64,000 nt of DNA from Bryoerythrophyllum caledonicum (taxonomy: Eukaryota; Streptophyta; Bryopsida; Pottiales; Pottiaceae): positions 10,855,218-10,919,217 of the forward strand of contig OZ020514.1 of the NCBI GenBank assembly GCA_963971425.1, in the 5' to 3' direction. The number at the start of each line of letters is the position of its first letter. Position 1 is the first letter of the stretch. Both the position numbers and the translations under genes were made by a program. The notes below the pieces were generated by a model that saw only the letters and a list, made by a program, of their open reading frames with translations, was not told the origin of the DNA and made no database searches. Shown here piece after piece: positions 13,466 to 47,959 of this stretch.

Positions 13466-14743
13466 ATGGACATGGAGGCTGGCATGTGGAGCGGGCTCCC
13501 ATTCGAGATCCTGGAGCAAGTGCTGGCCTTCGTGCCGGTCCCGGATTTGTGCAGGTACCGCGCCGTGTGCAAGGCGTGGGACCATCTCATCAGTGACCCC
13601 GAGTTTGCGGCCCGTCACAAGGCAGCGTCCATGTCCTACATCGTCATGAGTTATAGCCGTAGGTTCAAGGGTTACAGCCCCAGGTTCATGGACTCCGCAA
13701 AGAAGAAGAAGGAGACTGACCTCGGCCCGTGGTGCATACTGGATGTGCATGCGAGGCGGTGGTACACGGTGGGGTACCACAAGCGCCACCAGTTCATGCA
13801 CGACTTTGAAAGCATGGCCATGGAGGGGGGGCTTGTGTGCCAGTACTTGGAGACAAAGGCGCACGCGAACGTTGTGATTGTGCGCAACCCGATTGCCAGT
13901 GACACCGCGAGATTGGTGCCTGTTGCGTGGGACCACATCCCGTCCAACTCGTTTCGGGAGCTCTGTCTGGCAGTCGACGTGGCCTCCGCAGAGTTCAAGG
14001 TCATCCTGATCAACCACAGCTTCAACGGCTGGAGGTGTGGGATGATGCCTGTGACGGTGTTCAATGACATCCGGAAGGACCCGCCTGTGCGCGTGTACGA
14101 GTCTGCAACGAAGGATTGGAGGACCATGTGCATTCCGCCGTGGGTCAACGCGGGAGTGGGTCACATCCGCCGCAGCATCATGTTACGGGGCTGGTTGTAT
14201 GTGCTGTTTGGCGAGACAGAGTGCCCGCTCTGGCGATACGACGTTGCAGCGGACCTGTGGGAGAGGCTTGCTACGCCGTTCTCTCATATTCCCAAGTACC
14301 CGGAGCTCGTGGTGAGTGACCAACGGCTCTTCCTCGCCGCGTGGTACTGTAGGCGCTTCAGCCGCGCCTTGGACGGCGGCCTAAGGGAGAGGAAGTGGTT
14401 CTACAAGCTGTTTGAGGTCAAAGATTTTGAGAAACCGTGGTTTAAGGTCAAAGTCTCAAAGTGGGAGACGGTGTTCGACCATTCTAGGGCGAAGATGGTC
14501 GCGCTCTTTGAGGACGACGCTGAGGATTGTGACTCGGAGTACTATCACATCAGCTTGTTTGGGTGTGGGAGCTGCCTGCTGTTCATGTCAAACTCGACCG
14601 GGAAGGCGATGACGTTCGATGTGGCCACGAGGACGTGGGACCGCAGCTGGCCCCAGAACCCGCTTGGCGACAAGCTCCCGGAGGAGGATTGCTCATGGGT
14701 CGGGGAGCACATGAATCTCCTTCTTCCGAGTATGCGTTGGTAG
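13466..14743 (+). CDS. F-box protein with putative kelch/beta-propeller C-terminal part
   Basis: A single uninterrupted frame of 425 codons. Residues 11-42 form an F-box (LPFEILEQVLAFV, then CRYRAVCKAWDHLI), the segment that binds SKP1 and docks the protein into an SCF ubiquitin ligase. The remainder, with spaced aromatic strands such as LWRYDVAADLWERL and MTFDVATRTWDRSW, looks like degenerate kelch repeats, which would recruit the substrate. The organisation matches the large F-box/kelch family of mosses, liverworts and lycophytes. The first ATG after a plausible acceptor (TGGTGCAG at 13,453-13,460) was chosen; the frame is open further 5' but without ATG. A long 5' leader with intron(s), starting in the GC-richer DNA around 12,780-13,070, is likely. 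Codons are GC-rich compared with the AT-rich surroundings. The substrate is unknown. An opposite-strand frame of 261 codons is a shadow. Confidence 0.85.
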   Translation: MDMEAGMWSGLPFEILEQVLAFVPVPDLCRYRAVCKAWDHLISDPEFAARHKAASMSYIVMSYSRRFKGYSPRFMDSAKKKKETDLGPWCILDVHARRWYTVGYHKRHQFMHDFESMAMEGGLVCQYLETKAHANVVIVRNPIASDTARLVPVAWDHIPSNSFRELCLAVDVASAEFKVILINHSFNGWRCGMMPVTVFNDIRKDPPVRVYESATKDWRTMCIPPWVNAGVGHIRRSIMLRGWLYVLFGETECPLWRYDVAADLWERLATPFSHIPKYPELVVSDQRLFLAAWYCRRFSRALDGGLRERKWFYKLFEVKDFEKPWFKVKVSKWETVFDHSRAKMVALFEDDAEDCDSEYYHISLFGCGSCLLFMSNSTGKAMTFDVATRTWDRSWPQNPLGDKLPEEDCSWVGEHMNLLLPSMRW

Positions 14744-16140
14744 GAGCTACGTCAATGAAGAAATTAGCACGAAAGAATGATCACTGGATCATGACAAAAC
14801 ATTTTCTAGATTCAACAATTAGTTTCCGAGGTCCAGGTGGTAAGAATCCCAGTCCACATCCTGATAGAAACGATTAGGATCGAAACTGAAACGCAATAAT
14901 TGCAAACTTGGATAGAGCATGTTTCTAAAATTTCACGGCCATCAAATTGTCGGACAATTTCTGTGAATTTTTAATAGTCGGATGGGACACCGTATACTGT
15001 GGTATCAACTGGTTATTTTGACGTTCAGAGCTTTTGTCTCAAGCTCTAAGGAGAGGCAACATGCTCCGAACTCCAAACACAATAGATGTGACGAGCAATC
15101 CCTAGAACCCAAACTTGTGGAATGCGCCGCTGTAACGTCCTCTTTGCAGGATCCTTGGTGTAATATCTGCCAACATAACCAGACTCCATATCAATACAAG
15201 GACTATCACCAAAAGTTTCAGTGAGATACCCCTCTTTTTATTTCCAAGTACAAAAATTTCTTTACTTTTACAAATGAAAGAGAAATTGGAGGTCTCTCAA
15301 CTACAATCCTTATTCAGTACGCGAGTGTTGAAGTTGACGATTATATACTTTTCTGAGTACGGGTGGGACATCGAAAGACTGCCACTTATCGATGGAATGA
15401 ATTCGATTCGTGTTAAGTATGTAGAAGAAAAGGTGATCGATTGCATATACACCGCTAGTCACGGTATTAACAAGTGCTTGAACTGGCTTACCATCACAAA
15501 GTACAGTAGTATTACACAATTGAATTCTCAAGCTTGACACAGACGAGCGATCTTTGCCAGAGTATGCGATCATTCATCATGAAGCGCGCATTGCAGGGTC
15601 GACGTGGTACCAGTAATCGGAAGTGGAATTATGGTTCATAGGGTCTCGCCATGTGAAAGTAGCGATTCCAAATTATCAATGCCTTCTCTTTGAGCTTCGT
15701 GGTTTTTCGATCTCTACTCTGTTTCTGTGATAATTAGTTGTTTGCTTAATTTGGTAAAACATGGCAGCGCACTTTGAAGATTCTTAACTAATTTACATTT
15801 CATCGGACAAATATGAAATCACTTGGGTTGAGATTGTGATTCTGTTGGCTGTCCCTGAGAAATAAATGTATCAATTCTTTCTCCTCTCCATATGTGCACA
15901 TTGCTTAACTTGTCAGTTATGGGGGGTTTACTTTATTTGTTTCAGTTTTGAAATTATCTTGGAAGAATTTTTCGAAAAGAGCCTGAATGGACCCAGTATT
16001 GTACTCCCAGTACTGTACGAAGTTATACAAATTCCCCCAGACGCTAGCAGGCACATTCTCAACAGTTTCCCATGGGGGAAGGTAACCCTAGCCTTCTTCT
16101 CTACTACAACTAATTGAAAGGGAAAACCCTAATTCTCCAA
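14744..16140. other. No recognisable gene
   Basis: Only short frames of 80-104 codons without family character. Composition is intermediate between genes and desert. It may hold the 3' untranslated region of the F-box gene and unrecognised duplicated sequence leading into the exon-fragment cluster. Confidence 0.5.
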
Positions 16141-16142
16141 AC

Positions 16143-18392
16143 CTACAGAATCTGTTGCAAGTCCGCATCCTGTCGCGCAAGCTCCAAAAGCATGGGGTCG
16201 TCAAAGAACTTGTTGATACTCACATCCTCGCTCATACCCTGTACACAATGAAATCCAATCCAACACATGAGAAACAAGCGTAAACCCTAAACCTAAACCT
16301 AGAGTCATTTGTAAAGTCACCCGAAGTTTCAAGAAGATATCCCCATTAAAATCAGCTCTAAAATCAGGTCAAAGGAGAGAGGCGGCTAAATAATATTCAT
16401 GGTACAAACTCTTCCTTCTTCCTTCACTTCGGTTTGTTTTGAGTTTAGACACCACCAAGCGAGTTCTTTCATGAAGCTCTTCTGTGGATCTATATAGAGT
16501 GAGGAGTAGTCTAAAGATGGCCAGATTTGAGTTCACTTCCATTGAAGGAATCTACTTGAAAGACCACTAAGTTCTTCAACATCTAGTGATTATTTAGAGA
16601 GAGGAAAGAGAAGTATAATAAACCAAAAGAGGGAGTGAAACTCCGGGTGACTTTAGGAAGAAGTAAAGTACCCCAACAAGGAACGAAAGGAAGCAGTTGC
16701 ACTTTTTTCAGAAGTAGAAAATGTTACCTTTCTGCGCCTAGTTTTGACCATGAATTCACGGGCGAGATGCTGAACTGGGGCTGGCTCCAGAGGCCGCAGC
16801 ACAACCGACTTGTCGAGAGGATCCCCGGGCACTATGGACCAGTGGTCAAACACCGACACACAAAACGCCTGTCCTTGCGTGTGGTACCAAAGATCGGTCT
16901 CAAAACCAAACGACTCGATCACAGGTAAAAATGCCTGAACACCAACAACAGCACCATCAGTAGAAGATAGAGACACACTGAAAAGAATGATCTAGGCAAT
17001 AGAGTTATCTGCAAAGTACCCCAAATCTTCAGTTTCTAACCTCTCAAATGGAAAAGCCAGGGTCGCCGAGTCCACTGGCAGGTTTCACTGTAGACCTAGA
17101 ATAGAACACTGGATAGACTAGTTTTTGAGCCTTAGAATTCCCAAACTCGAGTTTGTGCCTGGCTTTTATTTTAAGCAATCATTGACCCTTCACATCATGC
17201 ACAACTCTAGGATGTAGGATACATGCCAGAGTGTCATGACGTTCATGATTGTTCTTGTGTTTTTTTTGGGAGATTTGTGCCACTTGTGCCATAAATAACA
17301 CCTCCTCAAAACCCTCAAACCCTGAATTTTTTTCACAGGATTACTTTGCGGCTACACTCAAATATAGGTTAGATTCTCTTTTGCATGAAAAAAGGAGGAC
17401 AAAAGACCGGTTCCCTTTACAAATAACTCAAATGACTTATTAGAGTTATTCGTAAAGTCACCCCAAGTTCATAAGCCATTCCTTCTTGAAGCTCAGTTAG
17501 ATACAGGTGCTATTGATGTGTTCCATTGGCTGAGCTCAGATGAATTACTAGAAAGGAGGCGAAATACACACCAATGGAAAGAAGAAAGTTCTCTACGACA
17601 TGGGCCTAGGAAGTTTCTATCGTTTTTCTTTAGAGGTTTAAATTTTCAGCTTGAGGATTGAAGTGCCTCGACAAAGTAGACAGGTTCCATGAGGCGCGGG
17701 GTTGCCATGAGGAAAGCGGAGTCTGCAACACGCCGAGAGGTCGGAATGATCTGGCCGCCGCCCCGATGCAGCGGCTCTTGCGCAATTGTGGCATCTAGGA
17801 TTTTGAACTTCACATTGCGAATAGGTTCATCACACAAGGGCCCCTCACGAGCTCCCCACTGAAACCTGCCGAAGTCACGTTTACAAATAGAGCACTTAAA
17901 TGTCACTTCCATATTGAAGAAACTAGAGAAGTGGACGTATTCAAATCATTTGACAAGTAAGAGATAGAGCCCGAGCTTCACCTAAAGCGCTTCTAGGATT
18001 AAAATCTGTCTTTAGCAGCGAGAATTCACGTACCCTTGCACGATGGAATCCTTTACAGAATTCAAAAGACCTTTGTCCACTTCACTCGGTAGTGAGTCGT
18101 CCAGCAATATATTCGGACCCTGCAAAGCTCAAACAAAGGCCACAACATTGATTTTTGGAGATCAAGAAACACTCTGCGCAAACAAACGATTTAGATGATG
18201 TTATGGTTAGGGAAAGAAGAGGTTCACATAATACCAGTTTATCTGGACCAAAGGCCCAGATAGACCTTGCAGCTAAAAGATCCCAGTCGTAATTGGTTTG
18301 GAAAAAATCTCCCAACCGCTTCCGAGGCCAGTCTAATGAACTATTCCATTTTCAATGTCCTCCGCTAACCCCTTCTCTAAGGGCTCTGCTAT
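16143..18392 (-). pseudogene. EFTUD2: EFTUD2/Snu114 (U5 snRNP GTPase) 3' exon fragment
   Basis: EFTUD2 (Snu114; CLO/GFA1 in Arabidopsis) is the EF2-like GTPase of the U5 snRNP that drives spliceosome remodelling. Five C-terminal exons are readable on the minus strand, with introns kept: 18,392-18,235 ([15 protein letters not shown], then [20 protein letters not shown]), 18,119-18,034 ([20 protein letters not shown]), 17,865-17,667 ([19 protein letters not shown]), 16,934-16,728 ([15 protein letters not shown] to KTRRRK) and 16,238-16,143 ([15 protein letters not shown] to a TAG stop). It is a pseudogene: the GTPase domain and roughly the N-terminal two thirds are absent, one internal exon (the SAIYTVL/RRRGHV region) between 17,667 and 16,934 is missing, the first exon shown has a one-base frameshift near 18,350, and the donor after 17,667 reads GC. 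Retained introns mean DNA-level copying, not a retrocopy. It abuts a PSMA3 fragment head to head. Confidence 0.85.
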
Positions 18393-18570
18393 CTGCACAC
18401 ATCAATTGCAAACAACCAAGGATTCATCGTTACCTACTTCATGAATATGCGAACGTATTGTTCTTCTGAACGTTGGGGTTGAGATTAATGTTCTTCTGTT
18501 GTTGCTCTTACAGTGTATTGAGATGCGTGTGTTCATGTCAGGATTTGACATGTAGATCTCTAGGTCGCAG

Positions 18571-19520
18571 GGAGTGGAAAAGCTGATCTCGTCCAAAATG
18601 TTGCTGGAGGGCTCCAACCGCAGAATCCATGCTGTGGACCGTCATTCTGGCATGGTAAGCTCGTCTAGTTCTGATCATCTTGCTTGGATATAACATATCA
18701 TAGTCCTTCTCACATGAGCTTCGGTTTTATCTGGTTCAACTAATTGGTTGTCTGCCCATGTTTTTGCAGGCAATGGCAGGTTTGGCGTCGGATGGTAGGC
18801 AGATTGTAACGAGGGCTCGCAGTGAAGCCTCAGAGTACCGAAGGTATCTTTCATTTCTGGGGGTTTCATTGAGGATGAAGATCGTCTGACATGATTGTTA
18901 ACCCCTCTTGCTTGTGGCACAGCTTTTATGGTACATCTTTTATTTCTCTTGCTTGTGGCACACCATTGCAGGGAAATTGAAAAGCTGAATTTGACAGAGA
19001 TGACCTGCAGAGAAGGAGTCATTGCAGTCGCCAAAATGTAAGCATTCACGAAAAACTCTGGAATTTACTCTTGAATGATATGAGCAAGACCCTCGTCTAT
19101 ACCATGAAACCATGACACCTTATTTTATATCAGTCACTTTAACAGCATGCTGGTAATATCAGTCGCTATATCATCACATTGGAATAATATTATCACGTTA
19201 TGAAATTGCCATCTAATGTTTGGATGTGCATTTTTTTGTTTTCAGCATTTATGGTGTGCATGATGAGGCTAAAGACAAGGCATTTGAGCTGGAGACGAGC
19301 TGGATTTGTGATGAATCAAACGGTGAGCACCAACGAGTAAGTTTTGTGTTTTCTTTTTTCAAATTAGCACTGTCAGCCTCAACTCTCTTAACATTTTTTG
19401 AACTTAATGAGATGCTTTTCATTGAAAAATTCAAGAAGCGATGTGAGATGTTCGGTATTGATGCAGGTCCCAGCGGACTTGTTGTCTGAGGCCCAGGAAG
19501 AAGACATGGATGCTAACTAA
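18571..19520 (+). pseudogene. PAG1: Proteasome alpha-3 subunit (PSMA3/PAG1) partial copy
   Basis: The 20S proteasome alpha-3 (alpha-7 by position) subunit is part of the outer gate ring. Five exons with good splice sites are readable: 18,571-18,654 (GVEKLISSKMLLEGSNRRIH), 18,770-18,843 (AMAGLASDGRQIVTRARSEA), 18,972-19,037 (EIEKLNLTEMTCREGVIAVA), 19,246-19,336 ([17 protein letters not shown]) and 19,467-19,520 ([17 protein letters not shown], stop). The first coding exons (start, N-terminal gate helix) are missing because the EFTUD2 fragment begins there. One conserved internal exon (the YGEP...YWWLRPFG region) is missing between 18,843 and 18,972, yet the phase across the gap is kept (AG/G). 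The C-terminal tail is shorter than usual. No stop or frameshift is visible in what remains. It cannot make a functional subunit as arranged; expression of a truncated product is not excluded. Confidence 0.85.
18905..18961 (+). repeat. 16-bp direct repeat at the missing PSMA3 exon
   Basis: TCTTGCTTGTGGCACA occurs twice, at about 18,905-18,920 and 18,946-18,961, inside the only 128 bases separating two PSMA3 exons that normally flank another exon. This fits a deletion or repair scar. Confidence 0.7.
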
Positions 19521-19665
19521 GAAGAAGGAGAAGAAGAAGACCAGCTCTGGGCAATGCTTAAATCCTCGATAAGTTATACTCTTTTCCAAATCTACAGATT
19601 TTTCCTACTTTAGGTTTTTGCCATGGAAATATTTTTTAATGAGGTATCTCCAGATCGAAGAGGAG

Positions 19666-20088
19666 TGTTAAAGTAAAAGTCAACTTAGAAACGATCAGTA
19701 GTTTCTATATCTGCATAAGGTAAAAGGAACTTTTGTTTCTATATCCACTCAAAGTAAAGTAAGCTTGTAGTTTACTTTACCTTCTATGGTGGGAGGAAAG
19801 TATATAAGGCAACTCTCCCATCGAGTTGAAGACACTTCTCCATAGCCAATATATTACAAATATATTTATGTTATTTGCTCTCTCTCTCTTTTATCTTGGT
19901 TTCCCCAGAGTTTGTAGCTCTATTTCCTTACGGTATATAGCTCCATCTTAACACTAAGGGCGTTGTGGATGCCACGCAAAGAGTCTGTTTTTGTCACTAT
20001 AAGCACTACCAATTGTTCCTTGTCTTAATTAGTGGAGTGATGCCTAGGTTCTTCCTGAGAGAATCACTGATTTAATTTTATTCCTGCA
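19666..20088 (+). mobile_element. Ty1/copia-type LTR (fossil)
   Basis: A stretch of about 423 bases starts with TGTTAAAGTAAAAG directly after a purine-rich tract (AGATCGAAGAGGAG), contains a TATATAAGG promoter-like box and a TC-rich stretch, and ends TTCCTGCA. This is the form of a copia LTR, preceded by its polypurine tract. No coding remains of the element are seen next to it, so it is a solo or truncated end copy. It sits between the PSMA3 and PP2A-A fragments. Confidence 0.55.
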
Positions 20089-20242
20089 CCGACATAAAAA
20101 ATTTGACAAGATGACTAGTCTTTAATTTGAGGCTCAAAATTTTCTACTACGAATATAAATGTACTAGAGCTCGAGGAAGTACCCGTTAAAGAGTTGTTAA
20201 ATATGGATGACTCCGGCATTGATAGCGGAATCTTGGTTGCAG

Positions 20243-20355
20243 ATCAAGACTTAGTGCGGCTTTTAGCAGTGGAGGGTTGTGCTGCCCTAGGGAAACTTCT
20301 GGAGCCTGCCAATGGCGTTGCGAATGTTCTCCCAGTAATCGTGAGCTTCTCACAG
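20243..20355 (+). pseudogene. PP2A scaffold subunit A, single exon fragment
   Basis: A 113-base exon with acceptor (TTGGTTGCAG) and donor (CACAG/GTAGGA) encodes DQDLVRLLAVEGCAALGKLL followed by an EP...VLPVIVSFSQ segment, a HEAT-repeat region of the 65-kDa PP2A A subunit (PDF1/RCN1 family), the scaffold that holds the catalytic and regulatory B subunits. A substitution series in the middle (ANGVAN where family members have a QDCVAH-like sequence) suggests decay or divergence. Neighbouring exons were not found on either side; the next recognisable sequence belongs to SPF30. It is an isolated captured exon. Confidence 0.75.
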
Positions 20356-20749
20356 GTAGGAGAATCTCAGTCCCTTTCTTCCCTCGTATCTTCTTCTGTC
20401 AGGTCGAGTTCTTCTCACATCACTCTTACAGTTCCTTGTAGCCAAGGAACTGGACAGCTGCATCGCTTAGTATGCAGAGATTTGAACTTTGTCGTGAGAG
20501 ACAATGGAGCCCAACTCAATTGTGAGAGAGTTGTTGCTTCGTTTAAACTATGTCTATAGCGTATTTTGGTTGCATTCAAGGCTGAATTTTCTTCAATCAC
20601 AGTATTTTAATAGTCCATAGCTTCCTGAGTGAACAGTGCATCCAACCAGGGAATATTGTATGATTTGTGAGCATATCAAGTTTGAGGAGATGTTGGTATT
20701 TCAGTATTTAAGGGTTTAGTGGAATCGGATGTACTTGCGATGGGCTAGT

Positions 20750-20842
20750 GATGAAGGGGTTTGCAATGCGATGGTTGTCAGAAGTCTGATTTTTGGTGAT
20801 GAGGGGGTTTGCAATGCCAAGGTTGTCAGAAGTCGGATTTTT
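20750..20842 (+). repeat. About 48-bp tandem duplication
   Basis: GATGAAGGGGTTTGCAATGC... is followed 48 bases later by GATGAGGGGGTTTGCAATGC..., both continuing into a GTTGTCAGAAGTC-type word. It lies in the probable leader or intron of the SPF30 fragment. Confidence 0.7.
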
Positions 20843-20934
20843 GGGGGTTTGTTAGGGTGGACGATTTGGCTCGTGTGGTGGATGCGTGTGTTGTGGATGT
20901 GGGATGGAGCGTTTGATGTCGTTTGTGCTCCCAG

Positions 20935-21240
20935 GTTGGTGACAAGATGAGTCTAGAGGAGTTGGAGGCCAATCTCTCCACAGACAAAGAGCAGCGTCAG
21001 GAAGTAAGCAATTTTGAAAATGAAGAATTGTTTGTATTTGAAGTTTTGTTCTATGATCAGAATGCAAAGATGTTGGACTCATTTTTTGGTGAGGATTGGT
21101 GCTGATGATTTTAGGGTTTGGTATTTGGAGCACAGGTGGAGGAATGTCTCGAGGTGGTGTTTGGAGCGCAGGTGAAGGAATGTCTCGTGGTTGAGCCTGG
21201 ACATGTCGAGCATCGAGAGATGACGGAAGATTTGACTAAG
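20935..21240 (+). pseudogene. SPF30/SMNDC1 splicing factor N-terminal exons
   Basis: Exon 20,935-21,003 starts the protein MSLEELEANLSTDKEQRQE (ATG at 20,947). The next exon ends VEPGHVEHREMTEDLTK at 21,240. Together they match the N-terminal helix region of survival-motor-neuron-related splicing factor 30, which recruits the tri-snRNP during spliceosome assembly. The Tudor domain and the rest are absent. The second exon start is duplicated: 21,121-21,156 and 21,157-21,192 are 36-bp tandem copies, each with its own CAG acceptor (21,135 and 21,171), so two exon lengths differing by 36 bases are possible; the downstream acceptor gives the canonical protein. Retained introns again indicate DNA-level copying. 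Confidence 0.65.
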
Positions 21241-21494
21241 GTATTCATTTCAATGCCCTATGCCCTATGTGTATTTGATGCTTGTGATTGGATTATGCCG
21301 TATGCCTTATGTGTATTGATGGTTGTGATTGGATTCTGATAGTCAGACTATCATATTACAAACACCTAAAAAGATGTAATGATATTACATCTTGGATTTG
21401 TGAGGTTTACATCGAGAACATTTAGATATTAATGTATAGACTTGATATAGATTATAGTAAATTGATTTTTTTATTGTTGTGTTGTGGTGTGTAG

Positions 21495-22730
21495 ATCCCT
21501 TTTCCCATTATCAAGCAGTACTTGGCTTCTAGCTACTTTTACCTCATAGATGACCCTCCTCCCACTTCCACTGGTGCATTGCAATCCATCGAGCAGGATT
21601 TGAATGCAGACGTGGACCGCACTTCATTTGATGCTTCAAAGGATGCCTTGAAGTACTTTTTATTAAAGTACTTCTCTACTCTGGTGGTTGCGGAGGTCAT
21701 GGAGGTCTATGAGGAGGTTCAGAGCTCAGTACTGGGCATTCAGTACTTTCTCCGTGGTGGCCACGGCATTTTTGGATTGCGGGTGTTGGACGATGTCAAT
21801 GATATTATACATTAGCATTGCACACGTGACGCGAGTCAAAATCCCGGTGTTTCGATGGGGACTATTACACCTCAACGAGCTGGTCATCAACCTCGTGATG
21901 AGGGGACATCTAGTGCTAGAGGAGGCCCAGCACAGTGGCCAGGACGGTCAGGACGGCCAGGACGGCCAGGACGGCGAGGTGGATTGTTTGCTCCAGCTGT
22001 ACCTTTGGGTGTGTTTTTTGAGGGACTTTTGACGGTTGACATTCTACTCCCAGCCTTTATGACCCCGGAGAAGCTTCCTACCAGAGAGGAGCAAGTTCGG
22101 AGGAGGATTACCATTGGAGAGCGATCATTGATGTTTCTTGATCATGCGATGGCGGTATATCCTTCAGGTCATCACTATGATCCTTTCGAGGATCGCATTC
22201 AGGATGTTACCCTCTACCATGGTCTACGTGCATCTTCATGGGAGAGGTTTCGCAAGAATGGCATTGTTCCACCGAATAGGAGGAACGAGTTTTCCCTTTG
22301 GCCGACGTTTTATGTGTCTAATGACTTAGGTCATGCGTTTGAGCATCCGCTCCATACCTGTCCACGATTGTGCGCGGGTGATGCAGTCAGCGTTCTTGCA
22401 TTTACGGTTCCAGTCGACATCCTCCATGGCGATCGAGCTCCCCCAGATGGCGGTGCTCCATTCGTTGTGCGGTGGTTTCAGTTTCCTGATGCAGACTGGC
22501 TGAGCTTCTATACGGGAAATCTCTATGTCAGTCATCATTCTCCGCATGACTTCGACATTGTGATCGGCCCTTCATGTATTCCTCATGGTCAGGGACAGGC
22601 GATAGCTTTTCAGTTTCTTCGTCATGGGGAGATGATCCAGCCGACGCAGATTGCTTTCTGCTCGAAGAGAGCATGGACTTGGTTGAGTGGACATGCTCAC
22701 TGTCTTCTTCAGGAGAAGAGAGCCTCATGA
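21495..22730 (+). CDS. Unrecognised ORF, possibly ADP-ribosyltransferase-like fold
   Basis: The main frame from ATG 21,855 runs 291 codons to TGA 22,728-22,730. The C-terminal 200 residues read LYHGLRASSWERFRKNGI, then FYVSNDLGHAFEHPL, VSVLAFTVPVDILHGD and HDFDIVIGP. The order YHG / FYxS-x-A / strand / DxVxGP recalls the ADP-ribosyltransferase-like DUF3990 group (NAD-binding fold), but no E-x-E catalytic pair is obvious. A 9-bp repeat (CAGGACGGC x4, 21,945-21,980) gives a Gly/Arg/Pro-rich linker. The same frame is open upstream from a TAG/ATC acceptor at 21,495 (YFYLIDDPPPTSTGALQSI...), interrupted by one TAG at 21,813-21,815; this may be an earlier exon, a premature stop, or a separate gene. 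GC content is higher than in the surroundings. It follows the SPF30 fragment and may belong to the same chimeric block. Function is not established. Confidence 0.5.
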
Positions 22731-25080
22731 TGCTTTCTTGTAGGACATTCGCTAGTGACAGTGATAGGGATGATGCTTTCTTGTAGGACATTCGCTAGGG
22801 ATTTTTCCATCGAGAAGTAGTTGAATTTTTCAGCATAGATTGAACCATGACTCTGATGTACAAAGTTGGATGAAAGACAGGTTCTGTTTTACAAAGTTTT
22901 CTACACAACAATCAAGTCATTTCAAAAGAGAAGGAAAGAAAAATCTCCAGAAAATGCTGAATAAATGAACAAGTCCAGATGCAGAACGAGCATGTAGCAT
23001 GTGATTCCACCTACCAATATTTTTCCTTCATAGCAACTCAAGCAACAAGCATCTTGGAACAAGGGCATGATTATAAAAAAAAACTTGTATTAAAAGGAGC
23101 AATCGAGCCTGTCAACACCAAATGTAAAGATGGAAGTCTCTGCATCTTATTTACAGTCACGATGCTCATGCACAATACATGAGCTAATCAATTTTCTAAT
23201 AAAAAATTTCAGCAGCAAGGGGGTTGGATCCACAACTACCGTTACCCCATGTGTTGACAAAGTTGTCTAGATGAGGAACGCCGCTTGTTGAGATTTAATC
23301 CTCTAAGTTGAACCCTGTTTGTTGTTGATGATGAAGATGATTCTATAGTTTCCTTCACTTCTGCGAGAAATGATGGATATGTAAAAAGGTGCTATCTGTT
23401 CTACAAACTCCTCGATCACTTTCCGAATGAAAAACGTGACTTCCAACATGCACGGACGATTCCGATTCTCTCTGAGAAGATTGACTTCTTACTGCACTTA
23501 CTTGAATTCACCTTCAAAACCCTAACACGCCCTCGTACACAGAAAGACTCAAAAGCATCAAAAGGCCCAAAACCCTACAAAACCTAATTCCAAGACCTGG
23601 CTCTCGGATCATCAAAGCACCCAAAACCCTAATGAAATGGGTTGCGACAAGAAACCAAGACCTGATCGTATCAATCACAGCACAGAAATAACACAGATGC
23701 ACAAAACACATCACAAGAGAAAACTCTTCGAAGAACATACAAGATGTGATAAAGAGCAACATAAGAAGAAGAAACTCTCCTTTTTTAAGAAAAACCCACC
23801 CACATGAGAAAAGTGTTTGTTCGTTCCAACCCTAAACCCTGAACCTACGTACCTTTGAGGCGCATCGCCATGGCTTTGGGCATGAGCAAGGAAACAAGTC
23901 TCCTTCTCTTTGCTTGCCTTGAGGGCAAAATGAGTTGAAGGTTTCTTCCTTGACTCTCTCTTTGTTTCTTCTCTTTTTCTTTCCTTTTTCTTCTCCTCTT
24001 TTTCTTTTTCCTGTTCTTTCCTTTTTCTTTTTCTTCTCCCCTTTCTTTTCCTTCTTTTTCATTTTTGTTATTTTTGTTGTAGGCCAATCACAAGGGACAC
24101 AATTCTTTTTCCATCAAGAAATACTCTAAATTTTGATGTTTAGTGTAGGCACACTATATGATTATAAATGCTGCAAGTTCTTACTTTTTATGAATATCTT
24201 TACCAACCATGTCGATAAATGATCACCCTCTTTAAGTAGAATAGATACTTGTACTCTCTGTAAAAATCTTCATCAAAAGTAAAAAGTCCTAGCGCTTTCA
24301 AATCATAAAGTATCGCAATATCAAATTCAATGCAATTGAGTTTTTTCCCTTATTTTCCTCTTTTCTTTTCCTTTCCTTTTCTTTCCTTTTTCTTCTTCTA
24401 TTCTCCGCAATTTTTCATACTATATAATAAATTGAATTAGAATTGAACAATTTAGCATATGAAATACATCATCCTCAAATACAAGGGATGTCGATATCAA
24501 CAACAAGAGATGGATTCAACGTCTTGCGGCCAACTAATCTTTGACAATTTATCAGCTAATTCTGATGTGATGGCCGTGTGAATCTCACACATAGTCTTGC
24601 CGATGTCAACTGCATCTTTCGAAGATGTGGTTCTACCAGAGTTGCACGGGTTAGATTGTCAAATTTGAATTGGCTAAGACCAGTTACAAAGTTTATAAGG
24701 AGAGAACCAGTGCTTTGGTCACACCTCTCCTTAATCAGGTTAGATTTTTTTTGCATTATTTTTATTTATTTATTTTTAGTTGTGGATTGGGCCAATTGAG
24801 CCTTTTGAAAGACTTCGCATTTGCCCATTTTTCCCTATTTTTTCCCATTTTCCCCGCATTGGACATACATTAGTTCATTGGCAAAGGGAATTGAATCCGA
24901 GTTCTTTAGGGTGACATTGCAACAATTTAGAAAGAGGAAGTCACCACATCCATAGTGCCCACCTATTTTCACCTTAAAGCATGAAGTGATCACAAAAGAT
25001 ACTGGAATTGCTCTTTACACATACCATGTTCAATATTCTCTTTTGCATTGCTGCAATTTTTTTATACATCCACTCCTTCA
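22731..25080. other. No supported gene; pyrimidine tracts
   Basis: The most notable content is a T/C-rich tract at 23,945-24,060 and a smaller one at 24,350-24,405. Two short minus-strand pieces with splice-like borders (ATG-containing 23,841-23,890 and an acceptor near 23,350) could be a small gene but show no family similarity. Confidence 0.5.
23945..24060. repeat. Homopyrimidine tract
   Basis: About 115 bases of almost pure T and C on the plus strand (GA-rich on the minus strand). Frames here that encode Lys/Glu or Phe/Leu runs are composition artefacts. Confidence 0.85.
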
Positions 25081-27965: not shown

Positions 27966-29382
27966 AAGGGAGTTTGCGTCTTTGCCTACAAAATCCATTT
28001 TTTAATACCACTTCTATCATTTCTTTTTTGTATTTTGCATCCAACTCCTAGTGTTTTCAATTCCCTTCCCCCCTTCCATTCTTGAATTGCTTCTCTTCTT
28101 CTTTGTAGTGTTGCAACGATACTTGAAGAGATCTTGAGAGCTTCAAGTGTGTGCATTTTGAGACGTTTAGGCAGATTGTAAAGGGAGTGTAAGTATGAGT
28201 TACATGAAGTGTGAGTAAATTTGAGTGAGTTACTTGTGAGTAGGTGACTTGTAAAGTTGAGGGAAAAAGATAACATAAGAAAAACAAAATGATTGAAGTA
28301 GAAATTGCAAAGTTTTGCATATCAATCCCTAAAACTTCTTGACTATTTCTCACCAAAACATTTCAAAATTGCTCATTTTAGTACAAAGAGAAAAAAAGAG
28401 AAGTAAAGTCATGTTTTCATCTTCAACCAATAAATCATAATACATACTAATGTAACCACATGCTCACAAACTTTCATAATCTATGACCACATAGATAAAA
28501 AGATTACAAAATTTGAGGTGAAGAAAAGAGTTTTCTTTCTTCCCTGCATATAAAGGAGCATGAAAATTTGAATTCACTTAAGGTTGAACTTTTGCATGAC
28601 TTTACACCATTACAACGTAAGTGATGTTTGGTTCTAGTACACCAATTTTTAGAGGTATCTGTAAAGTGAAGCATATTCAAAATAGTATTAACCAATGACA
28701 AGTGGATGAAAAACACCAAACCACGTTTTGGTTTTTGATTAATTAGATTCATGGAGAAATTGAAAAGCCAAATGGTCAAATCTAAGGTTCATGCTTCATC
28801 ATAAAGACAAAGATATAAAATGAAAAGAAAACCAATATTTCTAATTTATATAAGGAAATGAAGTCTGTTTTGTTCACCTTGTCTAAAATGGGTGAGAAAA
28901 CTTTGACTAGTCTTGGAATGGTACTTCTTCACAATAGAAGGTTTTATCTTCCACAATCTTAAATGACAGTAACTTGTATTAAAAATCTCATTGTCAAGTA
29001 CTCATAATATATTGAAGCTAGTTGTAACCATGCCTATGAGCACATTGATGGTGGTGGATTTACAGTGCATTTCATATGAAGTAGAAGTGAAGAGCCGTTT
29101 GTCTCAAATCATGTGTTGTAGTATGAAATATGATATGTGACAATCACTGCTTTGATCATGTAGAAATGCAAGTAATGATTATTCATGTAACATTTTTTAT
29201 TTTAAAAATCTTTGTATAATTCTTTTCAATGGTATTAATTCTAGTATTTTTCTTTAGGCACCAAAAATATGGAGGGACGAGAGACTAGTGGACTAAACAT
29301 GGATGGACCAAGTGAGATTGGCTTAGACTAAGCAGGTGGTGCCAATAAAAGTATTAGTATAAATAGTATCTCAATAGTATTG

Positions 29383-29605
29383 TGTCACATCTGGAACCGC
29401 GGATGGCAGCTATAGTAAAGACTTCAACTGCCACAGGTTACGACGTGGGTTCGAAACTGAGTTGTACACCTACTTGCATGTTTGCAATAAGACAGTTCAT
29501 ACACCTCACAAGGTGTGCCATGTATGGCTTATTTACGTACTCAATGAAAATCATTGAATATGGAAACAAGCGATACTTGACACAACATGAAGGCTTGCCA
29601 CGTAA
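29383..29605 (+). mobile_element. tRNA-derived SINE copy
   Basis: GTCACATCTGGAACCGCGGA starts the copy; the A-box-like region and a clear B box (GTGGGTTCGAAACTGAG) follow, then a tail ending with ATGAAGGCTTGCCACGT. Orthologous to 9,410-9,640 and 48,885-49,112. Confidence 0.7.
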
Positions 29606-30334
29606 TTTTTATTTAATGATTGATTATTAAGTTTTTATGTATGTGAATTTTGACTCTATATCCTTACAAATTATACACTAGTCTCAACATTTTTATAAAA
29701 AATAAAAAACAATATCCAATAACAGAAATTCTTTACATACCTAAAATATTCTTCATATTCAATGATAGTTCATAATATTAACAAAAACATTGTTTATAAT
29801 ATTTTTAAAATATATATATAGATGTGAAAGGCATGGCAAATATTTTAGTCACTCCAAACCTAATCCAAAATGAGTGAATAACTTGCAAATCAAAAGAATA
29901 AATCTTGATGCATGAAAAGGGATAAAGTACTTAAGTGAAAGTAAGTGCTTTCAAATTCAAACATTGATGCATCGGTGATATTCACATAAACTCTTGGCAC
30001 CATTTTTAAAATAATTTGAATATATGTTCTTTGATTTCAACCTAAAATTATATGCATTTGCCACTTTATTGATAATAATCTATGAAAACTTGCTATACAC
30101 CATATCTATGAGCTCATTGATGGTGGCAGATTTCTATTGAATTTTATATGAAGTAAAAGTGAAGAACTACTTGACTCAAATCACATGTTTTAGTAAGGGA
30201 CTCTTACGTATGTCAATCAGTTCTTCAATCATATAACAAATGCAAGTAATGCATATACATGTAAGATGAAAATTCATTCATTTCAAAAGTCTTTGTATAA
30301 TCCTTTTGAATGGTATCAATAGTAGTTTCATAGT

Positions 30335-31470
30335 ATTATGACACATCTGGGACCGTCAATGGCTTGGTCGTAAGGACTTCCAACGCCACAACAATGACGT
30401 GGGTTCAAACCTGAGCTGTACATATTTACGGTACAACTCTTAGTACTCATGTCTTGGACCAGTTCACGGTCATTTCTATACTTAACCCCTAAAGATCCTT
30501 GAAAGCCAAAATGGCTTTTTGCTATTTCGGGCAGCCTAGTTCAAGGGGTTAAATTTCATCTTTTTGCAAAAGATTTTTATGGGGTGTTCCCTATACTACA
30601 AGGTGTATGTGCAAGAATTTGCAAAGTCGAATTCCAATTTTTGAGCTTATTTACTCAAATTTTAGTTTTCAACCTCTGGGCGGGCAGAAAAAAACTTTTT
30701 ATTTTCAACATTTTTTTGAAATGTTTTTTTGCTAATATGTTCATAACTAAGTTTCTATTCAAATTTCCAAGTGACCCATGTTGAACCTTTTACCAATTCG
30801 GCAAGGGCAGCCTTTAAAAATGACAACAACAAGTTTCAAAGTTTTCCACAATATTACATTTTTTTCTTTCAAAATTCGTCAAAATTTGAGATTTAATAAT
30901 TTTTCAAAAATAATTTTTCCCAAAATTCACAAACTTAAAGAGGTACCTACTTACCGTTCAATTTTTTTCCTAAATTAAATAAAATAAACGTGATGCATGT
31001 TTTTCCAAATCACTGTTTTTATACCTTCTGTTGGAAAATAATTTGCATGAAGGTCCAAAAAGCCAAATGAGTCTCTAAAATTTTGCATAGGCATTCAGAA
31101 CATGATTCTCCACATGGAAAAAAATGTGAGCAAAATGATTGGTGTAGCAATCATCAAGTTTTCCTTTGCACAAAGTAGACTATGTCTTTTAAACAATGCC
31201 CAAAAAAAGTTTTGCATCAACTTTGAACATTATAATCTCACAAATGGTGCACATCCAAGGGCTCAAATTTGGCATAGTAAATTTCATAGTAGCTAGGTTT
31301 AAGATCCTACGGTTGAAAGTACTAAAAAACAGTAAATACATTGACCATACCTCAATTCCAACAGGGTGGTAGAAATTCGCAATTTTTGGTTTTCGAGCTC
31401 CCAAGAACACAAGGATTTTTAGGGGTTAATCAAAATCATTGAATATAGAAGTGTCCCGTAAAATGTTCTT
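30335..31470 (+). mobile_element. SINE copy split by a TTAA-flanked element
   Basis: The head (GGGACCGTCAATGGCTTGG, B box GTGGGTTCAAACCTGAG) and first part of the tail lie at 30,335-30,485. The tail resumes at 31,426 with TCAAAATCATTGAATATAGA. The intact orthologues at 8,450-8,665 and 47,960-48,165 show the pre-insertion sequence. Confidence 0.75.
30486..31425. mobile_element. 940-bp piggyBac-type non-autonomous element
   Basis: Terminal inverted repeats CCCCTAAAGATCCTTG (left) and CCCCTAAAAATCCTTG (right, reverse-complemented) match at 15 of 16 positions and are flanked by TTAA on both sides (30,482-30,485 and 31,426-31,429). Both other copies of the host repeat have a single TTAA in GATTAAGTACA here. 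The interior is AT-rich without coding capacity. TTAA target and CCC ends define the piggyBac superfamily. Confidence 0.85.
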
Positions 31471-32040
31471 GGACAAAGGCTTCTAACTAATCTTTTAAAG
31501 TGAGTTCTTCAAATATATTTTATGGATGTGAATTTTTCATTATATCATTACACGTCATATATTAGCATCATCACTGCAATCAACAAATATAGAACAACAT
31601 CTAATCATAGATCTTCTCCACACAAATGAATATGCTACATATTCAATGACAATGTATACTTGAACTAAAGGAAAAGAGTCAAAATAATTATTCATTCAGT
31701 TAATATGATGAAATGGAAAGCAATGCAAAATTGGGAAGTCCATCAAAACACATCTTAGAGTAAATATCCAAAACATAATTTAATATAGATATTAAATTAT
31801 AGAGTTGTTAAAGTAACTCATAAGAAGTGAATGCTTTCATATTCAATTATTGTACACATAACACTATGGAATGGAAATGATAAATATGCTCTAATCATAG
31901 AACCAAATAAATAGTTCCAAAAAAACTTTACATGATAAATCACTCATCGAAAACTATCATCAATTATAGTGAAAGATAACCAAAGCCTCCCCAAAACAGA
32001 AAAAAACACTTGCTCCACATCCTTCCAAAAACTACATTCC

Positions 32041-32414
32041 CACCCTCGCCTCCCAACACCGACACGGCACCTGGAACCGCCACACACGAGAATACGACCC
32101 CGCGACGTCCGTGCATGCCGACGGCTTTCGAGGCCCGGTCCGCGGCGATGGGGACGCGCACCCCACACGCGGCCACCCAAGCCCGCGCGTCTGCCCTAAT
32201 TGCTCTGTTCGCAGCGGAATGCGAGCGAGCGAGCGAGAGCGCGCGCGCTGCGAAGCGAGAGACTGCGAGAGCGCGAGAGAGAGTGAGAGCTCTCGACGCA
32301 AGAAAGGAAGTGGTGCGAAGGGGAAGGAAGGATCGAGAAGGGTCTGGGGTGAGGGCGAGGAGGAGGGAGGAGGAGGAGGAGGAGGAGGCGTGGGGTGAGT
32401 GGGGGTTGGCGAGG
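32041..32414 (+). promoter_or_regulatory. GC-rich promoter and leader of the plus-strand zinc-finger gene
   Basis: GC content jumps at about 32,041, exactly where similarity to the gene-less copy ends. It contains GCGAGCGAGCGAGAGCGCGC and a (GGA)n run just before the ATG; the run is two units shorter in the right-arm copy (46,344-46,703). Probably the core promoter and 5' untranslated region; no TATA box is obvious. Confidence 0.5.
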
Positions 32415-34376
32415 ATGCCGCCCAAGGCCGCGCCTTCCAAGGGCGGGGGCAAGGAGAAGAGCAAGGCGGACCTGGCGAAGAAGCAGAAGGTGGTGGAGGA
32501 CAAGACGTTCGGGCTCAAGAACAAGAACAAGTCCAAGAACGTGCAGAAGTATGTGCAGTCGCTGCACCAGTCCGTGCAGAACGCGGGCCCCAAGCGCGGG
32601 TCCGCCGAAGACGTGAAGGCGCAGGCCAAGGTCTGGGCTCTCCCGGGTGGAAATTGGATTGGATTGTGGTGGTTTAGGTCGTGATCGGTTGCCCTAATGT
32701 GGCGGTGTTGTGTCTCGTGCAGAAGAAGAAGGAGGAGGAGGCCGCGCGCGACAAGGAGCTGAACGAGCTGTTCAAGGTGGCCATCAGCCAGCCGAAGGTC
32801 CCCCTCGGCGTGGACCCGAAGTCGGTGGTGTGCGAGTTCTTCCGGCACGGGCAGTGCGCCAAGGGGTTCAAGTGCAAGTATTCGCACGACCTGAGCGTGG
32901 AGCGGAAGGGCGAGAAGATCGACATCTACAGCGACCAGCGCGATGACGCCGAGACGATGGACGAGTGGGACCAGGAGACGCTGGAGAAGGCGGTGGCGGC
33001 CAAGGCCAACGAGTACAGCAACAACAACAAGCCCACGGAGATTGTACGTGGATCGTTGGAAAGTGGAATGCATGTGGATGTGGGATGAGAGTGGTTTGGA
33101 TTAGTATCACCGCAGCAGTGGGATTCTTTTTGGAAGGGGTAGGTAGCTCGTTGATTGTTGGAACGGGTTTGATTTTCGAAGTGGAGTGGTGGAGACATGA
33201 GCAGAAGAAGGGTGTGCATGATGCTGGTAATTACAGCATAGCCGGGGCCTTGTTCGTGCAGGTGTGCAAGCATTTTTTGGATGCGGTGGAGAAGAAGCAG
33301 TACGGGTGGTTCTGGACGTGCCCGAATGGCGGGAAGGAGTGCCATTACCGACATGCGCTGCCCCCTGGTTACGTGCTCAAGTCGCAGATGAAGGCGTTGC
33401 TGGAGGAGGAGGGCGAGAAGCTGACGATCGAGGAAGAGATCGAGAATCAGGTGCGTGAAGGGGCAGGTCTTTGGAGGACGCAGAAGAGTGCTGTATTTAG
33501 TATTTCAGTAGTTCAATAGTTCAGCGCGACGGTTTGCAGTGAGACGAGGGAGGCGGATGCGACGGCAGGGTAGTGATTGGCTGTGTTGTTATGGATGCAG
33601 AGGCATATGACGAAGACGACAACGCCGATGACGGGAGAGCTGTTTGCGGAGTGGAAGAGGAAGAAAGCGGAGGCTCGGGAAGCTGAGCAGACTGCGAAGA
33701 GAGCGGAGAGGGCAAGGTCCGACAGAATGAGGTATGTTGTTTGGTTCAGGTCGCGCGTCGCGACTCAGAGAGGAGTCGTTGGAGTTGTTGTATCTGTTGG
33801 AATGGACTGGCGTATATGGGATTCTTATTCACCTTAATATTGTTTTTTTTCCCGTTATGAGTTTCGGATGAGCTGATTGGTGATGTTGGTGGACTCGGTA
33901 CAGTGGACGGGAGCTGTTTCTTTTGGATGCGAGTCTGTTCGTGGACGACGCGGAAGCGTATGACTCATACATTCGGGAGGAAGGTCCTGACGAGGTCGGG
34001 GCTTCAGGGTCCACGCCGCAGGTCAGTGGCGCGTTTGTTTCGTTGGAATGACCTGTTGAAAGAACTGACATGTGTGGAGGTGTAGCCTGAGTTGGTCTTG
34101 TTTGGGGTGCTCGAGGTTTGAGTAGTCTCCGATGTTGGTTTCTAGTCTGGTATGTGGGAGGACTTGCTCAAGAGCATGTGATAGTTCTCGAAATGGCACA
34201 ACTGACGCAGAGTTGTAAATCTGGTGCAGGCGGAGGAGAAACCAAGTATCATGGAAAGGGCAGGCATTAGCGAACAGGATGAGAAGCTGTTTGCAGACGA
34301 CGATGACGAGTTGGACTTGGACGAGTTGGATGAGTTGGAGTCAAGGATTCATAAGACGTCGTTGGATGACACTTGA
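32415..34376 (+). CDS. ZC3H15/DFRP1-type CCCH zinc-finger protein (DRG1 partner), left-arm copy
   Basis: Six exons with canonical sites: 32,415-32,630, 32,723-33,043, 33,262-33,450, 33,601-33,731, 33,904-34,021 and 34,230-34,376, giving 373 residues. ZC3H15 (DFRP1; Tma46 in yeast; C3H11-type in plants) binds and stabilises the developmentally regulated GTPase DRG1 and associates with translating ribosomes in the cytoplasm. Seen here: a Lys-rich start (MPPKAAPSKGGGKEKSKADL), a first CCCH finger (C109, C117, C123, H127 in CEFFRHGQCAKGFKCKYSHD), a second (C181, C199, C206, H210), a DFRP region (GELFAEWKRKKAEAREAEQ, about 253-290) and an acidic tail (FADDDDELDLDELDELE). Length is near that of family members. 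The frame is intact. ATG 32,415 follows GCGAGG and is the only start giving the conserved N-terminus. An opposite-strand frame of 369 codons is a composition shadow. The gene faces its twin at 44,373-46,343 tail to tail. Confidence 0.93.
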
Positions 34377-34806
34377 GGAGACGGAACCGTGACACCGTGA
34401 CGATGTTTGTAGGAAGGCAAGCGTTGGTGAGGTGGTTGAAATGGTGTGTGCATTCGGTTCTGGTTTTCCTCCACGGTTGATAACAATCTGATGGAGTTGA
34501 AGGGTGGTTTCCGAGTGATCATTGAGGTTTAGTTGCAGTTTTTAGCTCTCTAATGTGAGGGGTGATGTAGGAACCTGAGACTCCAGCTTGTGTAGGTTTG
34601 TTTAGCAAATTTAGAGCTCTTTCCGGGAGTGTTTACGTGAAATGTCTCTTTTTGAGGTTTATTTATTGAGTTCATGTGCTCTGTCTCGAATTTTCTGTTG
34701 CTGGGAGGTACTGAGAATATGTTAAGAATTTTAGATAATAGAGTTATTTGTGAAATCAGGCTAAGAGACCTAGAATTTTACCTCCTTTCTCATTTTAAGT
34801 CATTAA

Positions 34807-44090: not shown

Positions 44091-44372
44091 AGACTCAAAT
44101 ACTATACCTCAGATAGAAACATTTCACACACAGACTCCCGGAGAAAACTCTAAAATCTCGTCTCAACCCTGCACAACTTGAAGTCACAAGTCCCCACATA
44201 ACCTCTTCTTACATGACAGGTGCACTGCACACTCCCAGCTAAGCTGGGATACTACATTGTGTAGAAACCTTTCCCCTCCATCAGCTTGTTTTCAAAACCG
44301 AGGAGAAGAAATATACCAAATAAACCTCACCACCGCTTGTACAACATCTGACGGTGTCACGGTTCCGTCTCC

Positions 44373-46343: not shown

Positions 46344-46703
46344 CCTCGCCAACCCCCACTCACCCCACGCCTCCTCCTCCTCCTCCCTCCTCCTCGCCCT
46401 CACCCCAGACCCTTCTCGATCCTTCCTTCCCCTTCGCACCACTTCCTTTCTTGCGTCGAGAGCTCTCACTCTCTCTCGCGCTCTCGCAGTCTCTCGCTTC
46501 GCAGCGCGCGCGCTCTCGCTCGCTCGCTCGCATTCCGCTGCGAACAGAGCAATTAGGGCAGACGCGCGGGCTTGGGTGGCCGCGTGTGGGGTGCGCGTCC
46601 CCATCGCCGCGGACCGGGCCTCGAAAGCCGTCGGCATGCACGGACGTCGCGGGGTCGTATTCTCGTGTGTGGCGGTTCCAGGTGCCGTGTCGGTGTTGGG
46701 AGG
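46344..46703 (-). promoter_or_regulatory. GC-rich promoter and leader of the minus-strand zinc-finger gene
   Basis: Near-identical to 32,041-32,414, with a shorter GGA run. The boundary to repeat DNA is sharp at about 46,703. Confidence 0.5.
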
Positions 46704-47959
46704 CGAGGATGGGAATGTAGTTTTTGGAAGGATGTGGAGCAAGTGTTTTTTTTTTGTTTTTGAGGGAGGTTATTCTCATCAGTGTCTGTGGTGCTGTGTT
46801 TTTGTGGGGGTTGTTGATGTCTTTGTGGGGATAGTTTCTTTGTTATTTTTATTGTAGTTGTTAGTGTTGGATCGATGTATGGTTTTGTTGGAATGGTGGA
46901 TAGGGTGTGGTGGCCGTCGTGGTGGTGGCCGTCGTGGTGGTGTAGTTTGTGTTTCCAACATGAGGGTTGATGCAGTTTTAATGAGTATTTAGAGAGCATG
47001 TTTTGACTTGAGTAGATTGATCTTAGTTTTTTTATTTTTTTTGTTCTGATACCACTCTAATTTTAGTGCATACTTTGGGGGTGTTGTGATGCCCTTCTTC
47101 TGTATGGAAATTTTGGTTATATGTTACTCTATATGATTGTGGTTTTTTTGAGTGATTCTTCATGTAGAGTTTTTTGGAACTATTTATTTGGTTCTATGAT
47201 TAGAGCACATTTATCATTTTCGTCCCATAGTGTTGTGTATACAACAATTGAATTTGAAAGCATTTGCTTCTTATGAGTTACTTTAACAACTCTATAATTT
47301 ATTGTCTAGACTATATTAAGTTTTGGATATCCACTCTAAGATGTGTTTTTCAAGGACTTATAGATGTTTCATTGGTTTCCATTTCATCATCATAAATAAG
47401 TGAATATTTATTTTGACTCATTCTCTTTTAGTATTCTCTAGGTGGACCTTTGGTTCAACACCTCAATGCCGAATAATTCATTAAAGTGAAAAAATGACAT
47501 TCGGCATTCAAAATAAAAATAATGTTATTTTTGGCAAGAAATAAAAGACTATTATATTTGGCTTGCTTTGGGACTCATGGGGATTGAATTCAAAACCTTG
47601 GGATTCCAAACCCAAGTGTTTATGCATGAAATGCCATGGATGAAGACTTTTCCAAGCCTTAATTCCCTTTGATGTCTCTCCATGTGCCAAAATCTATTAA
47701 TATACATTTAAAACAATTTTTGTATTTTAAAAAAAATCATTTAATTTGGCATGGGCTTTTCTAATTAATATATGCCGGACGAGAGGTTCACCTACGGTAA
47801 TTCTATAGTGTCATTGAATATGTAGCATATTCATTTATGTGGAGAAGATCTATGATTGGGTGTTGTTCTATATTTGTTGATAGCATCATCATATAATGAT
47901 ATTATGAAAAATTCACATCCATCAAATATATATGAAGAATTCATTTAAAAAGATTAGTT

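Follow-up and report, generated by a model that had tools for sequence, protein, structure and literature searches.

The block at 15747-20684 of the window (the whole stretch of 64,000 nucleotides that was analysed) is an inverted, degenerate duplicate, with introns retained, of a single 16.4-kb locus, C1:8684518-8700953, on the same chromosome at a distance of 2.17 Mb. The donor interval holds EFTUD2, PSMA3 and PP2A-A exons 1-3 as neighbours, in an order and orientation matching those in the window, and the block is very probably an inverted segmental duplication of this three-gene locus that is now a pseudogene block. The first-pass annotation had described intron-bearing partial copies of four unrelated genes, EFTUD2, PSMA3, PP2A-A and SPF30. 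All four were present with introns and SPF30 is indeed separate, but the other three are adjacent at the donor and thus are not captures from separate loci. The features are as follows.

15747-20684, minus strand: whole decayed block, copy of C1:8684518-8700953 (blastn)
15747-17008, minus strand: EFTUD2 3' flank with exons 11 and 10, copy of C1:8699723-8700953 (blastn and exon matches)
16998-17434, no strand: putative MITE-like repeat, about 437 bp, high-copy (sequence comparison)
17455-17469, no strand: scar of a 346-bp deletion between donor CCAAAGTT repeats (junction sequences)
17462-18461, minus strand: EFTUD2 exons 8, 7 and a frameshifted 6, copy of C1:8698358-8699354 (blastn and exon matches)
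18462-18472, no strand: 11-bp filler at a 4,122-bp deletion (junction comparison)
18473-18932, plus strand: PSMA3 exons GVEKL.. and AMAGL.. and the start of the next, copy of C1:8693771-8694235 (blastn and tblastn)
18933-18963, no strand: 31-bp filler at a 515-bp deletion of PSMA3 middle exons (junction comparison)
18964-19555, plus strand: last three PSMA3 coding exons and 3' end, copy of C1:8692633-8693255 (blastn and exon matches)
19556-19953, plus strand: LTR-retrotransposon remnant, internal 3' tail and one LTR (copies at 85-95%)
19954-20684, plus strand: PP2A-A exon 3 with flanking intron, copy of C1:8684518-8685256 (blastn and exon match)
20947-21240, plus strand: SPF30-like exon 1 (20947-21003) and exon 2 (21172-21240), not donor-derived

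Comparison by blastn gave five collinear blocks, inverted and with the donor order kept, at identities of 88.6-96.1%. The matches cover 466-1,296 aligned bases with E values from 0 to 5e-216, far beyond chance, and the window retains about a quarter of the donor length. The search for intact parents led to C1:8.69 Mb for the three genes and to C6 for SPF30. The donor EFTUD2 has a complete frame of 981 aa in 11 exons with GT-AG introns and is the one gene of the three with a splice-checked model; the coding exons of donor PSMA3 and PP2A-A are in order. The joined donor translations align over approximately their full length with the solved Snu114/U5-116K and proteasome alpha-3 chains. The donor possesses the exons missing from the window, so their loss is not the normal structure of the parent genes. 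The introns kept in the window align to donor introns, and a retrocopy was rejected on these grounds, as the annotation had argued. A collinear, intron-bearing genomic parent that is intact, facing a copy disabled by absent exons and a frameshift, is what is expected of a non-processed pseudogene formed by segmental duplication. No further close exons of EFTUD2 (47 of 50 candidates scored) or PSMA3 (27 of 27) were found among the scored candidates, and the segment is single-copy, in opposite orientation, at two sites of C1. We infer that the duplicate was made from the C1:8.69 Mb locus and that what survives in the window is a dead relic. Assembly collapse is argued against by the count of zero N in the window and by junctions with fillers or microhomology.

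A duplication wider than the block was considered and rejected. Outside the edges, comparison of the window with 90 kb of the donor region gave only scattered 75-92% matches (at least 150 bp, in window 28-64 kb), which were taken as repeats. Inclusion of SPF30 in the same duplication was also rejected, the SPF30-like exons having no match in 90 kb of sequence surrounding the donor. Their parent lies at about C6:21682.5-21682.8 kb, and their divergence is higher than that of the donor-derived block; they were probably added in a separate event, older than the block duplication. An extra donor-derived PP2A fragment, at C1:10840925-10841388, is found about 30 kb to the left of the block, in opposite orientation and more diverged (87% identity). 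This fragment implies that copying happened more than once or that a rearrangement followed, and we count it against the preferred explanation.

All of the donor-interval exons of the three genes that are absent from the window fall within four deletions (346 bp, 4,122 bp, 515 bp and about 7.4 kb), and PP2A-A exons 4 onward lie outside the duplicated edge. EFTUD2 is represented on the minus strand by pieces of donor exons 6, 7, 8, 10 and 11 (five of 11 exons, spanning 16158-18407). Exon 9 was taken by the 346-bp deletion, a size read by eye from donor coordinates 8699700 and 8699354; the flanking direct repeats are 8 bp long and the window repeat differs by one base. The 4,122-bp deletion removed the 5' exons of EFTUD2 (exons 1-5) and of PSMA3, and this is why the two genes abut head to head. 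A gap of about 163 bp separates their coding pieces (18407 to 18571), in agreement with the earlier figure of less than 200 bases. Within the 11-bp filler at this junction the 10-nt TGTTCTTCTG recurs nearby, and with a 3-bp extension the match was found in 8 of 2000 shuffles. Without the extension the match is 7 nt, which 297 of 2000 shuffles attained, and this weak match is also counted against the preferred explanation. PSMA3 retains five coding exons on the plus strand at 18571-19520, four found by tblastn and the last by alignment. The 31-bp filler that marks its 515-bp deletion holds CTCTTGCTTGTGGCACA, a 17-nt local copy of sequence found just upstream, which none of 2000 shuffles equalled. 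PP2A-A is reduced to one exon on the plus strand, at about 20242-20355.

Two transposon sequences sit in the copy. The MITE-like repeat is missing from the donor site and present as an insertion in the copy, with short terminal inverted repeats, GAGTTAT...ATAACTC, a 3-bp AAT duplication and 97-99% identity to at least 21 other copies. The LTR of the retrotransposon remnant (19666-19953, ends TGTTAA...TTAACA) recurs by itself 2.5-10.6 kb off in eight pairs. The deletion of about 7.4 kb ends within this retrotransposon, the other end of which is gone, and thus the deletion is later than the insertion.

Given the 8-bp microhomology and the templated filler at the junctions, the deletions probably arose when double-strand breaks were sealed by microhomology-mediated or theta-type end joining. 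Work on plant filler DNA and theta-mediated end-joining scars likewise describes deletion junctions with microhomology and with insertions templated locally (PMC10923293, PMC2686159). That work deals with breaks induced in Arabidopsis or scars in maize alleles, whereas the scars here are old and deduced by way of a paralogue. The earlier suggestion of a repair mosaic holds in part: the internal junctions bear end-joining scars, and SPF30 comes from another chromosome.

With exons trimmed to exclude intron codons, the window and donor differ by 15 nonsynonymous and seven synonymous changes in 399 codons (68% nonsynonymous against 75% expected, p = 0.63), and these changes look neutral. One frameshift and one 21-base loss add to the coding damage. 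CpG sites were lost from donor to copy in 22 cases against seven in the reverse direction (p = 0.008), while C:G-to-T:A transitions as a whole, CpG or not, numbered 57 against 41 (p = 0.13). Non-coding divergence from the donor is 0.059 (Jukes-Cantor). The present copy would appear to be functionless and decaying as silenced DNA. In the trimmed exons 23 of 1,202 sites differ, compared with 153 of 2,702 non-exon sites (Fisher p about 4e-8), and differences in exons are thus fewer than they should be in a copy dead since birth. Exon sites may be far less changed because early constraint acted, or because mutation is faster, or alignment poorer, in introns. In PSMA3 there are three sites at which the window rather than the donor carries what we take to be the residue of the Arabidopsis protein. 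The exon contrast, these three sites and the p value for all C:G-to-T:A transitions are counted against the preferred explanation.

Helitrons have a 5' TC, a 3' hairpin-CTRR end and an A|T insertion site, and their captures frequently, though not obligatorily, join pieces from separate loci; Pack-TIR elements (Pack-MULE, CACTA) are bounded by terminal inverted repeats and a target-site duplication. The multi-gene, intron-bearing fragments and the transposon-rich surroundings would suit a Helitron or Pack-type transposon that captured several gene fragments and inserted them here, the giant gene-capturing element of the first-pass annotation, and a perfect 10-bp hairpin lies 6 bp ahead of CTGG-T at 21681, beyond the right edge of the block by about 1 kb. 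However, homology to C1:10.247 Mb continues through 21681, and the hairpin is therefore not an element end there. By eye, TC/CTRR ends were absent on both strands at 15747 and 20684, where the true edges could have eroded, and the edge sequences showed no target-site duplication. A search of 15200-21300 for inverted pairs of at least 14 nt gave 22, none of which links one block edge to the other. The short Helitron claimed 5 kb away was not recovered, a strict scan of window 10-26 kb giving no match; when the criteria were relaxed and the whole window was scanned, 12 Helitron-3'-end-like motifs were found, none at a block edge, against 7, 4, 10, 6 and 8 in five shuffles. Among the scored candidates (40 of 3,083 and 40 of 249), many of which were repeats, the package did not recur. 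With EFTUD2, PSMA3 and PP2A-A sharing one collinear donor locus, capture by a transposon is extremely improbable. A single template-switching repair event, copying separate donor pieces together with the junctions as copying jumps, agrees with the collinearity of all pieces at one locus and would fit the junction fillers too. It is nevertheless improbable, since the truncated LTR retrotransposon at the PP2A junction must have been inserted before the junction formed, and the 346-bp junction lies between donor direct repeats, as is typical of a simple deletion.

The preferred explanation is that the inverted segmental duplicate was created by DNA-level break repair or replication, probably with neither a transposon nor reverse transcription. 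How the duplicate arose admits a variant of this explanation rather than its opposite. The inverted pair might bound a 2.17-Mb inversion produced through staggered single-strand breaks, where the 16.4-kb segment between the nicks would be duplicated oppositely at both ends and one end would then decay. The inverted orientation, the shared chromosome, the multi-gene segment and the contrast of one intact end with another shortened by deletions would all be consistent with this, and there is a precedent in inversion 2h of D. mojavensis. There an intact 7.1-kb three-gene segment lies at one breakpoint and a 2.7-kb inverted copy riddled with deletions at the other (PMC3355041). In both cases one site has the three-gene segment whole and the other has it inverted and shortened by deletions; here, unlike there, the inverted duplicate pair alone is known, the segment is longer at 16.4 kb, and a plant is concerned. 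A dispersed duplication on the same chromosome would be inverted about half the time anyway, however, and an inversion does not predict the extra PP2A fragment in direct orientation, and we regard this variant as a tentative and rather unlikely one.

Fragmented, intron-retaining dispersed pseudogenes of plants were judged compatible with break-repair duplication in an earlier study (PMC7935947). As in that study, introns are kept here, the copy is broken and homology was not found past the block; unlike there, the block covers three neighbouring genes in donor order with identifiable deletion scars. Once the donor is located, the patchwork of 'unrelated' genes becomes a set of co-duplicated neighbours, trimmed by deletions with readable repair scars. 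If the inverted pair does mark an inversion, it would be a fossil scar of a large rearrangement, datable from the non-coding divergence, and a plant case for a mechanism described in flies.

The EFTUD2, PSMA3, PP2A-A and SPF30 pieces, introns included, were found with the same strands and order as in the first-pass annotation, and the EFTUD2 and PSMA3 coding pieces are separated by ~163 bases. A DNA search of the same genome (437 Mb, 894 contigs; contig OZ020514.1, here C1, is 65.2 Mb) with window 14740–23500 as query gave matches to C1:8684518–8700953 that were collinear and inverted. Refinement by blastn gave five blocks.

Collinear blocks shared by the window and the donor locus on C1 (blastn identity)
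Block 1: window 15747–17008, donor 8700953–8699723, inverted, 88.6%
Block 2: window 17462–18461, donor 8699354–8698358, inverted, 95.0%
Block 3: window 18473–18932, donor 8694235–8693771, inverted, 96.1%
Block 4: window 18964–19555, donor 8693255–8692633, inverted, 91.4%
Block 5: window 19954–20684, donor 8685256–8684518, inverted, 91.7%

Together these cover ~4.06 of the 16.4 kb of the donor (25%), where three genes lie side by side: PP2A-A (minus, 8686274 to 8681630), PSMA3 (minus) and EFTUD2 (plus). The alignment indicates that the EFTUD2, PSMA3 and PP2A-A pieces have one donor, not four. The donor EFTUD2 is an open frame of 981 aa in 11 exons with GT-AG introns, and is complete, so the exon loss is not the normal structure of this parent gene. 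Its joined translation (977 aa) aligns over residues 2–977 with PDB chain 8xi2_C, oddly deposited as 'Elongation factor Tu, chloroplastic', and across 1–975 with human Snu114. Donor PSMA3 and PP2A-A are exon placements without a splice-checked model; the best PDB match of PSMA3 was 7qve, a plant proteasome, which points to a probable plant genome. Protein searches of the genome found no further close exons of EFTUD2 (47 of 50 candidates scored) or PSMA3 (27/27); the remaining matches, at 28–56% identity, are probably paralogues, for example EF2 and further alpha subunits.

Comparison with the donor indicates that the exons missing from the block were deleted in the copy. The first deletion, 346 bp by donor coordinates 8699700 and 8699354, lies between CCAAAGTT repeats of the donor, one base of which is altered in the window, and removed EFTUD2 exon 9; adjoining it is a 437-bp high-copy repeat with a 3-bp AAT duplication that the donor lacks. 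The second, 4,122 bp, took EFTUD2 exons 1–5 and the PSMA3 5' exons together and by itself produces the head-to-head abutment. Its junction holds an 11-bp filler whose 7-nt local match is at chance level (297/2000 shuffles); with 3 bp added on each side the match is 10 nt, reached in 8/2000. The third, of 515 bp, cost PSMA3 its middle exons and left a 31-bp filler including a 17-nt copy of nearby sequence (0/2000 shuffles). The fourth, ~7.4 kb, removed the PSMA3–PP2A intergenic stretch and PP2A-A exons 1–2. As it ends within an LTR retrotransposon, of which an internal tail and one LTR (19666–19953) are left, it is later than that insertion. The 289-bp LTR part recurs alone 2.5–10.6 kb away in at least eight genomic copies, the pattern that a two-LTR element would give. 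Microhomology and templated fillers are described as marks of theta-mediated end joining in a report on Arabidopsis (PMC10923293) and of filler DNA in one on maize (PMC2686159); the same enzyme may have acted at the junctions seen here.

Divergence was counted with trimmed exons. Copy and donor differ at 153/2,702 non-exon sites (5.7%; Jukes-Cantor 0.059) and at 23/1,202 exon sites (1.9%), exon divergence being far under non-exon divergence (window 15812–20684; Fisher p ~4e-8). The 399 codons compared, from 11 exons, show 15 nonsynonymous and 7 synonymous changes. The nonsynonymous share is 0.68, where neutrality predicts 0.745 (p = 0.63), a pattern that looks neutral; the copy also carries one frameshift and a 21-base loss. 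CpG loss is biased from donor to copy (22 vs 7 in reverse, p = 0.008), the direction that silencing of the copy should produce; counting every C:G to T:A transition gave 57 vs 41 (p = 0.13). However, exon divergence is below what should be found in a copy dead since birth, which is a poor fit. Likewise, three PSMA3 sites where the window, not the donor, matches the residue of the Arabidopsis protein do not fit neatly.

The SPF30-like exons (20947–21003 and 21172–21240) have another origin. The parent is at 21682.5–21682.8 kb of contig C6, the sole SPF30 locus found in the genome search (4 matches; 5/5 candidates scored). Its intron positions correspond, and the aligned stretches of 76 and 53 bases are 74–87% identical at the DNA level. 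These exons join a third (21495–21815) in frame as a 148-codon ORF (20947–21815) without a Pfam match. Directly past its stop, in the same frame, is a 304-codon open frame (21816–22727) that matched no Pfam family at thresholds as loose as E 1 and has partial relatives at C1:10.247–10.257 Mb. The segment from 21254 onward is 87–94% like several copies there; most exon 3 copies have in-frame stops, and the SPF30-like exons were not found in the 20 kb examined around them. Window 22776–24399 is a 92–94% copy of C1:10775987–10777614 with its halves swapped (circularly permuted), as from a tandem array or circular intermediate.

A second donor-derived PP2A-A fragment (exon 1–2 region, direct orientation, 87%, C-to-T bias 29 vs 7) lies at C1:10840925–10841388 (625–1088 of L057, the piece C1:10840301–10842300), ~30 kb left of the block (34 kb if measured to the PP2A exon of the block); it may be part of the same duplication. 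The PP2A-A intron/exon block also has three equal-scoring matches, each of 77%, at C1:6653862, 6663604 and 6673346; their exact 9,742-bp spacing suggests a tandem triplication. Large inverted repeats within window 28236–34411 and 44340–50246 (31986–34411 vs 44340–46769, 97.9%; 28236–30485 vs 48015–50246, 86.7%) contain a G+C-rich reading frame that by eye is zinc-finger-like.

The proposed gene-capturing transposon is not borne out. At the block edges no TC/CTRR ends or duplication were seen by eye on either strand, the 22 inverted repeat pairs include none that links one edge to the other, and one collinear donor makes capture unnecessary. A hairpin-CTRR-T scan gave 12 matches in 64 kb; five shuffles gave 7, 4, 10, 6 and 8. 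The best of the 12, a perfect 10-bp hairpin at 21681 (21660–21685), lies outside the block and is run through by homology to C1:10.247 Mb. This hairpin, GAAGTACTTT-TTATT-AAAGTACTTC, 6 bp ahead of CTGG-T, resembles a Helitron 3' end. For the origin of the duplicate, a break repaired by copying to another site, the route proposed in a study of dispersed plant pseudogenes (PMC7935947), would suffice. A more specific possibility is that the pair was made by a staggered-break inversion, an event that puts an inverted duplicate at each of its ends. The intact donor and deletion-cut block are much like the two ends of D. mojavensis inversion 2h, described as three intact genes in 7.1 kb at one end and 2.7 kb, reduced by deletions, at the other (PMC3355041). 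The patchwork block is real, well explained and ordinary in kind, a clean example and not a surprise.
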